A DNA stretch of 64,000 bases, taken from IMG/VR virus record IMGVR_UViG_3300027779_001743, positions 1-64,000 of that record; one strand, given 5' to 3'. The notes under the pieces are model-generated. The model saw only the letters and a program-made list of their open reading frames with translations, did no database searches and was not told where the DNA came from. Positions within the stretch are counted from its first letter, which is position 1, and each line of letters begins with the position of its first letter. This DNA is from a virus. The translations under genes and the position numbers were made by a program. Shown piece by piece: positions 50,073 to 63,847 of this stretch.

Positions 50073-50279
50073 ATGAGTTTAAAGTCATTAGTTAAAGAAG
50101 TAATCGCAGAAGAAAAGATAAATTTATTTGTTGAGAAGAACATTCCAACAAATCCAAGCAAGTGGTCTTATTACAAATCACAAGCTAAAAGTAAATTTGA
50201 TGTATATCCAAGTGCATATGCAAATGGTTGGGCAGCAAAAAAATATAAAGCCGCAGGTGGTGGTTGGAAGAAAGGATAG
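50073..50279 (+). CDS. Small basic protein with targeting-like N-terminus
   Basis: 68 residues. MSLKSLVKEVIAEEK looks like a capsid-targeting peptide with a Glu-ending site (VIAE). The rest contains SKWSYYKSQAKSKFDVYPSA, which is shared by a family of small phage proteins of unknown function. The gene starts 1 bp after the upstream stop and is probably a head-internal or DNA-binding protein. Confidence 0.6.
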   Translation: MSLKSLVKEVIAEEKINLFVEKNIPTNPSKWSYYKSQAKSKFDVYPSAYANGWAAKKYKAAGGGWKKG

Positions 50280-50283
50280 AACT

Positions 50284-50709
50284 ATGAATGAAGCATGTTG
50301 GGTAGGATTTAAACAAGTAGGAATGAAAGACAAGGGTGGTAGAAAAGTCCCTAATTGTGTAAAAGAAGAAATGGAAATCTTTTATGAAGTGGATGGAAAA
50401 GGACACGGATATACTTTTGAATATCTTAGATTGCCAGAAGATATCAATGAAGCAGAGTATCAAGGAAGAAAAGTAAAACTCGGTAAGCCAATGCAGGGCG
50501 ATATCAAAAAATTTAAAGTCTATGTTAAGAATCCAGCCGGTAATGTCGTAAAGGTAAACTTTGGACACGGTGGAACATCAGTAAAGGGTAAAGCAATGAG
50601 AATTAGAAAATCTAATCCTGACGCTCGTAAGAATTTTAGAGCAAGACACAATTGTGATACACCAGGTCCAAGACATAAAGCAAGATACTGGAGTTGTCGT
50701 AAATGGTAA
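50284..50709 (+). CDS. Conserved-looking basic protein, unknown
   Basis: 141 residues from the ATG at 50284 (AAAGGATAGAA before it); a longer overlapping frame would start inside the neighbouring gene. CWVGFKQVGMKDKGGRKVPNC lies near the N-terminus, and the C-terminal RKSNPDARKNFRARHNC with YWSCRKW is rich in Arg and Cys. A zinc-stabilised nucleic-acid-binding role is plausible. Not recognised by name. Confidence 0.55.
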   Translation: MNEACWVGFKQVGMKDKGGRKVPNCVKEEMEIFYEVDGKGHGYTFEYLRLPEDINEAEYQGRKVKLGKPMQGDIKKFKVYVKNPAGNVVKVNFGHGGTSVKGKAMRIRKSNPDARKNFRARHNCDTPGPRHKARYWSCRKW

Positions 50710-59418: not shown

Positions 59419-60297
59419 ATGTCTTTAAATGTTAAACATAACAAGATAAAGAATACTGCTATTCTTTATGAATTACTATCTCGTCAAATAACAGCTGACG
59501 TGATAAATGATTCAAAAAGTCCTAAATCGGTGAAGATTTTCAAGGAATTCTTCAATAAAAATACCGAATTGGGTAAAGAATACGCACTTTATCAAGTTTT
59601 ACTTGAAAAAAAATACAAAAACGATTCTCATGCCGCAACATTAGTTGAAGCAGTGATTAAAAGTCGTAGAAAATTGTCTAATCGTCGATTAAACAGTGAA
59701 AAATTTAATCTAATTAAAACCATAAAAGAAAGTTATGATATAAAGGAGTTCTTTAATACTCGTTTACCTAATTTTAAAATTATGGCTTCAATTTATAAAG
59801 TTTTCGGAACAGAAACAGGTAAAGAAGACTTTGGTCCAGTTCAAAGAACAGATTCAGTCATTACTATAACTGAACATATCAGTCAGAATACTAATAAAAA
59901 AACTAAATCAAATAAACTTGTTGAGGATTACGCTCAACAAGATAAAGATTTGAGATTATTGAGTTATCAGTTATTAGTTGACAAATTTAATACAAAATAC
60001 AAATCTTTAAATGAAAGTCAAAGAAACTTATTGAAAGAATATATCAATAATGTATCTAATACTAATTCATTGAAAGAATTCATAGACAATGAAGTAATTA
60101 AAATTAAAAGAGCTTTAAAGAAATTATTACCAAATGTCAATGACAAGATTACAAAAATAAAATTAGCAGAAGCTATTGATTATACAGATAGCGCTACTAA
60201 GGGAAAAGTCGTGAAAGATAAACACGTGGTTGCTTTAATGAGATATTATGAACTAATTAAGGAAATTAAAAGTGTCCAAAGCACAAAAAATAGCTAG
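59419..60297 (+). CDS. Head-core candidate 1, unknown
   Basis: 292 residues, mainly helical and Lys/Asn-rich, with many Leu-Lys pairs (IKRALKKLLPNV, YELIKEIKSV). Position between portal and protease corresponds to T4 gp67/gp68, which build the prohead core. There is no sequence similarity that I can see. Its 3' end overlaps the next gene by 26 bp. Confidence 0.55.
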   Translation: MSLNVKHNKIKNTAILYELLSRQITADVINDSKSPKSVKIFKEFFNKNTELGKEYALYQVLLEKKYKNDSHAATLVEAVIKSRRKLSNRRLNSEKFNLIKTIKESYDIKEFFNTRLPNFKIMASIYKVFGTETGKEDFGPVQRTDSVITITEHISQNTNKKTKSNKLVEDYAQQDKDLRLLSYQLLVDKFNTKYKSLNESQRNLLKEYINNVSNTNSLKEFIDNEVIKIKRALKKLLPNVNDKITKIKLAEAIDYTDSATKGKVVKDKHVVALMRYYELIKEIKSVQSTKNS

Positions 60298-61369
60298 ACT
60301 CAAAGAAATTATACGAGAGTTAATTAAAAAGAACCTTGCAGAAGTTTCCACAACAGCAACAGCTGGTATTGATGGAACAGGAACAGGACATTACGATACA
60401 CCAAAAGCATTTGCAAGTTCTGCAAGTGGTTCACAAGGTGGTCATCCTAATCCAGATGTTCTTGGATATACAAAAGTAAATGAAGATGTAATTAACGAAT
60501 TCGTTAGTGTGGATAACTTCAACAAAGACTTTAATACAGCTATGAACTTAGTTATGAAACAGGCCAAAAATTTAAAAGGCCCATTAGCAAAGCACCCAAT
60601 CAAAAGAAATATCAACAAGTTAACTGCAGTTCAAAAACTATTCAATAAATTTATAGCACCAGCTCTTGTAAAAAAAGATAGAAGTTTAGGAAAAGGTTTT
60701 GATTTAACCAGAATAAAAAAAGAATTATCGGATGGTAAGTTTAAATCAGTCGTTCAATATTTAATAATGCCTCAAATTGGTGGTCAAAGTTACGATAGTA
60801 ATTCATTTTTTATGTTAGATGATAAAGAGAAAAAATTATTAGATAGAATATGGAGTGAATTAAAAAAACTAACAAACATTATGGACGACGCACAATTAGA
60901 ATCAGTAAATGAAGTTACTGATAAAGAAGTCAACGCATTAAAAAAATTCATAAGAGATTTTGATAAAATGCAAAAACAATATTGGAATATTGCTAAAATG
61001 GGTGACCAAGAAATGAAAAACCCAAAATACAATAAACATTACGAAACTATTTTAGCAGCTCAAAAATCAATCGTTGACCTTACAAGAACAATGCAAGGTT
61101 TAAAATCTATGGGTGAGGGTTTAAACGAAGGTCGTTATCACAATTGGAGAAATGACGAATCAATGACACCGAAACAAAAAATTGGTATATCGGTTAGAGA
61201 AGTTCGTGACGCATTGACCGAATTAGACAAAAGAATTAAAATGAATTTACAATTAAAGACAGAATTAAATATGGACGGAAGTGCATATTGGAAAAACACA
61301 CACAAAGCATTAACTAAAATTTCAGAAAGATTAGTTAAATTAGCAGGTAAAGTAGGAAATTTAAAGTAA
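60272..61369 (+). CDS. Head-core candidate 2, GTG start
   Basis: 365 residues from the GTG at 60272, seven bases after AAGGAA. A helical, basic first segment (SKAQKIARLKEIIRELIKKN) runs into LAEVSTTATAGIDGTGTGHY and YDTPKAFAS, a Gly/Ser/Thr linker. The remainder is Lys-rich and helical and has several Glu-ending sites (TKVNE, VINE, LESVNE, GLNE) that could be cut by the prohead protease. The position suggests a core or scaffold function. Confidence 0.55.
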   Translation: MSKAQKIARLKEIIRELIKKNLAEVSTTATAGIDGTGTGHYDTPKAFASSASGSQGGHPNPDVLGYTKVNEDVINEFVSVDNFNKDFNTAMNLVMKQAKNLKGPLAKHPIKRNINKLTAVQKLFNKFIAPALVKKDRSLGKGFDLTRIKKELSDGKFKSVVQYLIMPQIGGQSYDSNSFFMLDDKEKKLLDRIWSELKKLTNIMDDAQLESVNEVTDKEVNALKKFIRDFDKMQKQYWNIAKMGDQEMKNPKYNKHYETILAAQKSIVDLTRTMQGLKSMGEGLNEGRYHNWRNDESMTPKQKIGISVREVRDALTELDKRIKMNLQLKTELNMDGSAYWKNTHKALTKISERLVKLAGKVGNLK

Positions 61370-61980
61370 TGAAACAAGTAATAGTAGATTATATACCATT
61401 TAATATAACACCGCAACAGATTACTGAAGCGCTGAAAGAAAACAACGGAAAGTTAGTTGTTAAAGGTGTATTACAAAGAGCAGAAGCAAAAAATCAAAAC
61501 GGAAGAGTATATCCAAGAGAAATCTTGATGAGAGAGTCAAAAAGATATGATGAAAATTTTGTAAAACAAAATAGAGCACTCGGAGAACTTGACCATCCAG
61601 ATTCATCAGTAGTGAATTTAACAAATGTATCTCACAACATTACTGAAATGCACTTTGAGGGTGATAATTTATTAGGTACGGTAGAAATACTTACAACACC
61701 AAGTGGAAACATCTTAAAAGAATTATTTAAAAATGGTATTAAATTAGGTATCAGTTCAAGAGGATTGGGTAGTGTTGAACAAGTTAGAGAAGCAAATGGT
61801 GATGATGTAACTAAAGTCGGAGATGACTTTGAGTTAATTGCATTTGATTTCGTATCAAATCCATCTACACACGGAGCATTTTTATATCCGATGAATGAAT
61901 CAGTAGATAAACAAGGTAGAACTTGTGGTCAGTATTGTAAAGCAGAAGATATCATCAATCATATTATTAGAGGTGAGTAA
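61369..61980 (+). CDS. Prohead protease (T4 gp21-like)
   Basis: 203 residues, TAATG overlap at both ends. GELDHPDSS provides the catalytic His (His76), LGISSRGLGS the Ser (129/130) and AFDFVSNPS the Asp (160), as in the gp21 family. It cuts scaffold and capsid proteins after Glu in sites of the Leu/Ile-x-Glu type in T4. Its own N-terminal ITEALKE may be a self-processing site. Many proteins of this window carry matching sites, listed below. Confidence 0.92.
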   Translation: MKQVIVDYIPFNITPQQITEALKENNGKLVVKGVLQRAEAKNQNGRVYPREILMRESKRYDENFVKQNRALGELDHPDSSVVNLTNVSHNITEMHFEGDNLLGTVEILTTPSGNILKELFKNGIKLGISSRGLGSVEQVREANGDDVTKVGDDFELIAFDFVSNPSTHGAFLYPMNESVDKQGRTCGQYCKAEDIINHIIRGE

Positions 61981-63413
61981 TGCCAGCAGTTTCTAAGAAA
62001 CAGCAAAAATTTATGGGTATTGTTAGAGCAATACAAACAGGTGACGCAGACTCAAAGAATTTTACACCGAGAGTACAAGCAGTAGCCAAAGATATGAAAA
62101 AGAAAGATGTGAAAAAGTTCGCATCAACTAAACACAAGGGATTACCAATGAAAAAAGAGATGTTAGATAAGCTTAAAGAAATGGTTCGAGTAGAATTAGA
62201 ATCTTGTGGTTATACACATTCAGTTTCGGGTAAAAAACTTAAGTCATCTGGTGGAACTGGTCCAGAAGATAGGTATTTAAAAGAAATGTCAGACAAATCT
62301 AAAAAAATTATCAGTAAATTAGGTAAGAAAGAAAAAGAAATGTTTTCAACTATGGTTGATATGATGGGGTTTGACCAGGTAATGGCAGACTACAAAAAAG
62401 ATAAGAAAGCATTTAAACAAGCATTAGCAGATATGAGTGAAAACATCAATGAAAAAAAGAAAATGTTTCCACCATTGAAAATGACACCAAAACAAGCAAA
62501 AGAATATAAAAAGTTTATAGGATATGCAAAAATGGGAGTAGAATATCAAATAGATATGTCTTTGTTTGAATCAGTAAATGAAAGTATTTTAACAAAGCAA
62601 CTATCTAAAATGATTAATGAACCAGATAGTTCCATTGTCAAATTTATGAAAAAATCAGGATTGGATGAAGCATCTCTATTAGATTTTGTTGAAAAACTTA
62701 CAAGAAATAGTTCAAGTTTAAGAAAAAAACATATCCAAATTATGAAATCAGCAATTAAAGGTGATAAAAAATCAGAAAAATTTATAAATAAAACTCTATT
62801 TGGAGAATCAGTAAATGAAGCCCTTACAGGTGGAGATAGAAAAGTATTAATGGTAATCGGTAAAGAAATAAAAGATAATATCTTAAAGAAACATACAGGT
62901 GTTAAAGGACAACAATTAATGAAAGTAATTTCAAGTGTATTTATGTCTATGAGATTTACACCAGATAATATAAATTATAAAAACTTTAAAAAATACTTTC
63001 CAAAAAAATACAACGACAAGTTACTCAAAAGATTAGGTGATAAATTACAAGGTGAAAATGATTCAGTTAGACAAACATTTTTTAAGCAACTTGTTGGTGA
63101 ATCAGTAAATGAAGCCAGATTAGACCCAAAACAATTACTACAACAATTAGGTGGTAATAAATTTGTCGCAATGACAGGAGCAAAAAATCTCGCAGTCGAT
63201 AAGTCAAAAAATGAATTACATATGAAAATAGGTAGAAATTCAAAAAGTATATCACACGTTATCATTAGATTGACATCAGGAGATTTATACGATATGGAAT
63301 TTTTAAGTATTCGTGGGAGTTCAAGAAAAATTAAATCAAAAGAAAAAGGAGTTTATGCCGACCAATTAGGTAAAATGTTCAAAAAGAACACCGGTTTAGA
63401 CGTAAGATTATAA
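61980..63413 (+). CDS. Modular scaffold-position protein with DUF3008-like start and repeated ESVNE sites
   Basis: 477 residues. The first 55 residues (SKKQQKFMGIVRAIQTG, KKFASTKHKGLP) match the short DUF3008-type phage protein. The rest is Lys-rich, with the pentapeptide ESVNE three times, each before Ala or Ser: residues 197-201, 276-280 and 374-378; ENINE stands near 158. These resemble prohead-protease sites and divide the protein into blocks of about 40-100 residues. In T4 this slot holds the scaffold gp22. The last block has beta-like strands (HVIIRLTSGDLYDMEF). Confidence 0.65.
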   Translation: MPAVSKKQQKFMGIVRAIQTGDADSKNFTPRVQAVAKDMKKKDVKKFASTKHKGLPMKKEMLDKLKEMVRVELESCGYTHSVSGKKLKSSGGTGPEDRYLKEMSDKSKKIISKLGKKEKEMFSTMVDMMGFDQVMADYKKDKKAFKQALADMSENINEKKKMFPPLKMTPKQAKEYKKFIGYAKMGVEYQIDMSLFESVNESILTKQLSKMINEPDSSIVKFMKKSGLDEASLLDFVEKLTRNSSSLRKKHIQIMKSAIKGDKKSEKFINKTLFGESVNEALTGGDRKVLMVIGKEIKDNILKKHTGVKGQQLMKVISSVFMSMRFTPDNINYKNFKKYFPKKYNDKLLKRLGDKLQGENDSVRQTFFKQLVGESVNEARLDPKQLLQQLGGNKFVAMTGAKNLAVDKSKNELHMKIGRNSKSISHVIIRLTSGDLYDMEFLSIRGSSRKIKSKEKGVYADQLGKMFKKNTGLDVRL

Positions 63414-63421
63414 GGAATACA

Positions 63422-63847
63422 ATGGATAAAAAACAAATAATGAAAATGAGTGATACTTGGAAAGACTTCCGTTTAACAGAAGCAAAACTATTTCAAGATG
63501 GAGCACAACACGGATTTGATTTGACAGACTTTAAACCAGGTGGATTTAAAAAGTTTTTAAAAGCATTAAACATTCCAATGATAGCAAAAGGTTCATCATC
63601 AGGTGCAAGTTGGTCCGGTGGAAAGAATTTCTTTTGGAGAAACAAAGATGTCATTATTATAACTGCAAACAATCCAATTACAGGTCAATATAATGCACCC
63701 GATAGAAGAAGTCCAGAAAAGAATTACGCATCATACGTGGGAATTGAAACAAAAGACCCAAAAGATATGGACAAAGTAGTTAAATTATTTAAACAAAATA
63801 CATCTTATCGTAAAGGTGAATCAAAAGGTAGAAGGGACTTTGTATAA
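63422..63847 (+). CDS. Unknown protein with Glu-ending N-terminal peptide
   Basis: 141 residues, with AAGGAATACA before the ATG. The start MDKKQIMKMSDTWKDFRLTEAKL holds a LTE-Ala site like those cut by prohead proteases. The middle (GSSSGASWSGGKNFFW) is Gly/Ser rich. Not recognised. It is in the head gene series. Confidence 0.55.
   Translation: MDKKQIMKMSDTWKDFRLTEAKLFQDGAQHGFDLTDFKPGGFKKFLKALNIPMIAKGSSSGASWSGGKNFFWRNKDVIIITANNPITGQYNAPDRRSPEKNYASYVGIETKDPKDMDKVVKLFKQNTSYRKGESKGRRDFV

Follow-up and report, generated by a model that had tools for sequence, protein, structure and literature searches.

Internal head proteins of bacteriophage T4 are the textbook route by which proteins are delivered together with phage DNA, and T4 IPI demonstrates that such molecules can counter host defences. 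In the same phage, genes 67 and 68 sit between those encoding the portal and the prohead protease. IPI-IPIII and Alt possess a capsid targeting sequence and undergo cleavage by gp21 (PMC9026906, PMC3012670), a protease that cuts after L/I-x-E, fragments gp22 and gp67, and trims off the leaders of internal proteins (PMC9026906).

The window considered here comprises the first 64 kb (64,000 nucleotides) of the 70,695-bp virus record IMGVR_UViG_3300027779_001743, the remainder of which is designated locus L005. Head genes are arranged in the order gp17-like terminase (55906), gp20-like portal (57496), an ORF at 59419, the 60272 gene, the gp21-like S77 protease, the directly adjoining 61980 gene, small genes, a gp22-like scaffold and a gp23-like capsid protein (Table 1). 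The product of the 61980 gene is probably a modular precursor in which gp21-type prohead-protease sites link several small internal head proteins head to tail, and that of the 60272 gene a second, smaller one; as such, the 61980 gene would represent a variation on the T4 internal-protein and prohead-protease scheme. Specifically, we infer that the precursor would enter the prohead core as a single chain, that gp21 would cut after the Glu of every [V/I/L]-N-E joint, and that the freed domains would remain with the DNA in the capsid or leave with it on ejection. As the 15-bp joint DNA is common to many joints, it would double as a seam for in-frame gain, loss and reordering of modules.

Table 1. 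Features of the head-gene cluster within the window; a slash in a peptide, here and in the text, marks the presumed position of cleavage.
Feature	Position	Strand	Details
Second modular gene (N-terminal piece ending LAE at 60335-60343; WVE, VTD and GRY modules)	60272..61369	+	365 aa, GTG start; between portal and protease
ESVNE joint of the 60272 gene (LESVNE before Val; WVE/VTD), GAATCAGTAAATGAA	60899..60913	+	
gp21-like prohead protease (Peptidase S77)	61369..61980	+	PF03420 E 2e-27; phrog_207 E 8.7e-54
Putative modular precursor gene, DUF3008-CGY-MSA-KKM-B-C-D	61980..63413	+	477 aa; between gp21 and gp22
Module DUF3008 (PF11450)	61980..62153	+	aa 1-58; Pfam 24.9 bits vs cut-off 24
Module CGY, ends in joint LKE (62277-62285)	62193..62285	+	aa 72-102; recurs with varied neighbours
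Module MSA, ends in joint ENINE (62439-62453)	62286..62453	+	aa 103-158
Module KKM, ends in ESVNE joint 1	62454..62582	+	aa 159-201; module catalogue
ESVNE joint 1, GAATCAGTAAATGAA, before Ser	62568..62582	+	aa 197-201 of 61980 protein
Module B	62583..62819	+	aa 202-280; placed after C in L007, missing from near-identical L006
ESVNE joint 2, GAATCAGTAAATGAA, before Ala	62805..62819	+	aa 276-280 of 61980 protein
Module C	62820..63113	+	aa 281-378; five-helix domain (predicted); relatives carry it in 60272-type genes as well
ESVNE joint 3, GAATCAGTAAATGAA, before Ala	63099..63113	+	aa 374-378 of 61980 protein
Module D	63114..63410	+	aa 379-477; phrog_9437; predicted alpha-beta domain
Small head-cluster gene, leader-like N-terminus FRLTE/AKLF	63422..63847	+	sequence; inference

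As with T4 IPI-IPIII and Alt, small and mutually dissimilar bodies are encoded among head genes, a leader or joint ends in a gp21-type x-x-E site, and relatives present as separate genes carry leaders (e.g., MIKLKDIL.E and MINLVDLLKE). T4, however, employs one gene with its own leader per protein, whereas here one DUF3008-headed chain combines several bodies through a near-standard joint, in an order that changes from one relative to the next. Several gp21 sites per precursor and a location near gp20-gp21-gp22 are shared with T4 gp22, gp67 and gp68, but those core proteins are cut up and mostly removed, the sections of the source drawn upon describe no shuffled, independently occurring domains (PMC9026906), and the window phage has a separate gp22-like gene besides the 61980 gene. 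Similarly, a distant gp21 homologue cuts the head-protein precursors of phiKZ and SPN3US at several x-x-E sites each; there, in contrast, the motif is S/A-x-E or A-x-E, most cleavages release N-terminal propeptides, and neither standard joint DNA nor module reshuffling is described in the sections concerned (PMC10052503, PMC9026906). Lastly, a DUF3008 protein lies beside an NMNAT-like protein in the virion cluster of S-SCSM1 (PMC9602691), and the window phage has both DUF3008 and an NMNAT-like gene, although the DUF3008 of S-SCSM1 stands alone and lacks ESVNE joints. A literature search, partial in coverage and weak as evidence of novelty, returned no earlier description of DUF3008, phage polyproteins or prohead-protease polyproteins.

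The label "scaffold-position", originally given to the 61980 protein, is inexact because the gp22-like scaffold is another ORF in the L005 part of the record, namely a separate acidic ORF (~67054-68274) located beyond the window and just 5' of the gp23-like major capsid gene; the identification of the 61980 product as gp22 was rejected on this finding. Immediately 3' of the capsid gene lies a GIY-YIG-like endonuclease-type ORF (L005:11979-12614, record ~69978-70613), and a similar ORF is found 3' of the major capsid gene in locus L017. Comparison of gp20 and gp21 places Microcystis phage Mel-JY01 and Flavobacterium phage immuto closest among isolates (50-55% identity), and neither has an ESVNE protein after gp21.

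The original prediction further held that the pentapeptide ESVNE recurs beyond chance, three times in the 61980 protein before Ala or Ser and once in the 60272 product before Val. All of these copies are present, and a degenerate ESVNE pattern (TCN serine codons) run across the whole 70,695-bp record yields four matches only, identical in DNA; on the reverse strand, and with a reversed-pattern control, the same record gives no match. An open-frame scan of the record likewise found no further ES[VI][NDEK]E sites in frames of at least 100 aa. Among 903 non-redundant ORFs of related loci (192,629 aa), ESVNE is the top pentapeptide with 61 copies, whereas the 59 remaining permutations of its letters average 0.19, and ESINE contributes 29 more copies. 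The permutation control takes out composition as a cause of this excess, which bears out recurrence beyond chance; since the loci were gathered through these proteins, the count describes this gene group.

Two of the joints within the 61980 protein are spelled otherwise (LKE/MSDK and ENINE/KKKM), such that one part of the claim of a standard dividing site stands, in that modules are separated by protease-type sites, while the other does not, ESVNE being merely the commonest of several spellings. Searches of the modules against Pfam, PHROGs and PADLOC gave nothing firm except DUF3008, phrog_9437 and other DUF3008-type PHROGs. The PF11450 match (aa 3-59, profile 1-57 of 57) is above the curated cut-off and covers the N-terminal module only, and the phrog_9437 match (E 4.3e-22, profile 5-98 of 98, protein 384-477) covers the C-terminal module only.

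Comparisons among relatives relied upon viral contigs found by scans with pieces of both proteins (loci L006-L162), and upon 21 modules defined by profiles whose seeds were picked by eye; an earlier clustering of segments at ESVNE-type sites alone had over-merged modules, and profile-based modules were used instead. A contig binned in a Flavobacteriales MAG (L169) displays the same architecture. Across this set, a [VILM]-x-E site is found at 85 of 107 module joints, versus approximately 11 in random stretches of the same length, and 34 of the 85 are ESVNE-type sites. DUF3008 is the first module in every polyprotein architecture and D is a last module in relatives, no module of the catalogue preceding the former or following the latter in any relative, and the middle modules differ: MSA is found in 15 proteins with 7 different left neighbours, and CGY precedes C, D, KKM or MSA, depending on the relative. 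The search for reordered modules that had been proposed was also productive, as the order KKM-B-C-D of the window becomes KKM-DGH-x-C-B-D in L007, with B before C in the former and after it in the latter.

Module boundaries coincide with the joints. Protein alignments between relatives begin exactly at the first Glu of the site 28 times and end exactly past its last Glu 26 times, as compared to 1-8 for each neighbouring offset; overall, the enrichment of such ends in the vicinity of sites is modest (6.7% versus 2.7%) because many of them fall at other joints or elsewhere. Of 118 pairs of sites matched by homology on the right, only 17 (14%) were also homologous on the left, while co-conservation 45 aa from the site, on either side, is 76-78% (tests at +/-25 aa were dropped, as flanks there include the site itself). 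At the DNA level, L006 and L007 share 99.3% identity across the 1000 bp that precede the joint on its left and 100% across the 700 bp on its right, with a 237-bp module B between C and D in L007 and a direct C-D connection via a single linker in L006. More generally, DNA matches (at least 90% identity, 110 de-duplicated loci) have 619 internal ends, and 90 of these fall within linkers, which make up 0.28% of the sequence. Taken together, these data support a modular reading of the 61980 protein in which modules are exchanged exactly at the joints. A second clean difference between the same two loci is an extra segment of ~490 bp at the start of the next gene in L007 (L007:4744-5235), which includes the N-terminus MKKLSQILESINE. 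Elsewhere in the window, the product of 50128-50709 ends in an AEYQGRKVKL module with DINE/A just before it, and this module is also seen in Pelagibacter, Roseobacter, Methylophilales and Flavobacterium phages, podovirus-sized small genomes included.

Several of the modules also exist as separate genes, as had been proposed as a check. D is free-standing in many phages: in L017 it lies behind a T4-like leader (MINLVDLLKE/WNAQDVLKQLGG) just 5' of gp22 and gp23, and in L141 it forms the gene immediately 3' of the polyprotein, with an N-terminus starting MIKLKDILE and an SVDE/GMTKQQ stretch ahead of the domain. L064, L063 and L129 each have DGH as a free-standing protein behind a leader, together with VNE/DGHTDV in L064. 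A paralogue of B is a gene of its own in the window phage (L005:6927-7241); in L006 its counterpart is fused to the next gene via LDE/AVNIRGN, and the unfused form of that next gene in the window phage starts MIKLKDILNEKNE/AVNIRG. These free-standing and fused forms indicate that what stands before a given body can be a leader in one case and a different module in the next. DUF3008, anticipated to be a free-standing protein elsewhere, is indeed found alone in cyanophages, and in S-SM2 it lies ~32 kb from gp21.

With regard to the nature of the joint, it can be compared with the probable maturation sites of capsid proteins. Those of relatives include LVNE/AS (several, as QLVNE/AS), LINE/NS and LIQE/AS, and that of the window phage is LIQE/ASVTGG; across the clade, P3 is Ile (5), Val (4) or Leu (1), P1 is Glu, and P1' is mainly Ala. 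The joint matches this site type, although with Val at P3 it deviates from L/I-x-E, the strict motif of T4. Moreover, ESVNE or ESINE is found in relatives at the end of a leader (MKKLSQLLESINE), within gp22-like proteins and near the C-terminus of gp21, which are the substrate classes expected of a gp21 site. The assignment of ESVNE to the prohead-protease type is thereby upheld, V-x-E/A being a probable capsid maturation site in several relatives, and because LVNE/A stands at that site in several related capsid proteins, gp21-type cleavage appears to be the best explanation for the joints, which the gp21-like protease presumably cuts. Within the gp22-like scaffold of immuto (L164:9949-11190), a tandem duplicated block (GFEQWLDSVSAQMDKFGKNNPTIQ...) has copies preceded by VNE/G or LEE/G, the same joint type within a scaffold. 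Counted against the precursor reading are the Val at P3, the nearest isolates without the gene, some free-standing D outside head clusters, the lack of any module with a confident PDB fold match, and the start of the 61980 precursor, which opens with DUF3008 and lacks a short (~10-residue) T4-type N-terminal leader ending in a protease site.

The DNA of the linker is conserved beyond codon use, a finding new relative to the original prediction. Specifically, the exact 15-mer is present at 49% of ESVNE sites, where codon use in these proteins would predict 7%, the Val codon is GTA in 95% of distinct contexts versus 50% in other Val-Asn pairs (and GTC or GTT in capsid-protein LVNE), the Ser codon is never AGY, and linkers within one genome are identical in 51% of cases versus 27% for shuffled ones (p ~0.0002). 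The Ser codon agrees in 81% of comparisons among sites with the same left module versus 49%, and the Asn codon in 81% among sites with the same right module versus 53% (permutation p ~0.001 or less, uncorrected for twelve tests); a weaker link between Ser codon and right module has an equally uncorrected p of 0.03. As the two ends of the linker track their own flanking modules, crossovers inside the linker are suggested.

A distinct possibility, falling only a little short of probable, is that linker DNA is alike solely through co-copying with modules and shared codon habits, with no role in recombination. Such passive descent is consistent with the 15-mer being in frame at 30 of 30 places, with Asn codon use that across all sites equals the background, and with site pairs that are not independent in uncorrected codon-tracking tests; it is at odds with the excess of the exact 15-mer, the preference for GTA and the differing codons of capsid VNE, the likeness of linkers within one genome, and the separate allegiance of Ser and Asn codons to left and right modules. 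A recombination role is accordingly suggested rather than proven, as lineage effects and the non-independence of pairs qualify these results. An autonomous DNA element lying outside the coding frames was rejected on the basis of the in-frame placement, few chance copies being expected in any case. We tentatively propose, as something possible though not probable, a dual use of the 15-bp linker, in which the peptide serves as capsid-protease site and the DNA as standard homology for in-frame recombination of internal-protein modules, yielding combinatorial, rapidly rearranged proteins delivered with the genome. Mobile regulatory cassettes of T4-type phages, reportedly intergenic cassettes of promoter and stem-loop described in a study of modular shuffling, are said to have a short repeat at module borders as well; the repeat described here, unlike theirs, is intragenic, in frame and encodes a protease-type site.

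It is rather unlikely that both modular genes encode prohead core proteins like T4 gp67 and gp68, fragmented by gp21 mainly for exit before DNA packaging, with modules as spacers instead of cargo. The 60272 gene does occupy the position of T4 67 and 68, and short, lysine-rich, fast-varying modules would fit a filler. Cleavage of T4 gp22 and gp67 yields several pieces each, most of which exit the head (PMC9026906). Yet C and D, each modelled alone, are predicted as compact folded domains (pLDDT 87.2 for C, with residues 95-98 disordered, and 88.9 for D), for neither of which a PDB match at E<=0.001 was found; the best VIA-align Z for D, 6.3, is within the range of common arrangements, and D matches viral proteins without a named function. 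Furthermore, D and DUF3008 occur alone in unrelated phages, some D homologues (e.g., in phiM12 and Paride) lying outside head clusters, which suggests functions of their own. In S-SCSM1, from which 45 virion proteins were identified by mass spectrometry, the annotation counts the DUF3008 protein and an NMNAT-like protein close to it among the virion proteins, and cyanophage virions are reported to contain NMNAT-like proteins (PMC9602691). Given the folded predictions for C and D and the virion annotation of DUF3008, cargo is favoured over core filler with moderate confidence.

That ESVNE is an uncut flexible spacer copied with the domains, the protein acting as one multidomain chain, is improbable: the joints are acidic, polar and linker-like, the last residues of C are predicted disordered and cleavage is deduced from sequence, but joint spelling varies while keeping [VILM]-x-E, the joint resembles the capsid-protein site and recurs at N-terminal leaders, and the same bodies exist as separate genes.

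If the reading of the 61980 gene as a precursor of internal head proteins is true, a phage could exchange delivered proteins without new leaders or promoters, and cutting at [VIL]NE joints beside gp21 would offer a route to candidate delivered proteins in uncultured viruses. The two genes would also supply an S77 protease with putative natural substrates that contain multiple sites, and point to a natural way of packaging several proteins encoded together in a single gene.

The NMNAT-like gene of the window phage (51072-54647) specifies a protein of 1191 aa, in which a PF01467 domain (cytidylyltransferase/NMNAT-like) is accompanied by a stretch, spotted by eye, that resembles a polynucleotide ligase (EKLDGQN ... 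EGIVFK); LINE/VELPIKVGD is present within its N-terminus. Lastly, the cyanophage virion protein encoded by S-SCSM1 gene 92 (L167:4436-5998) and S-PM2p142 contains a DPVGKED..DNDG..KSDKYL module; this module is shared by 225 phage records, mainly of cyanophages, and possibly belongs to another set of shuffled virion modules.
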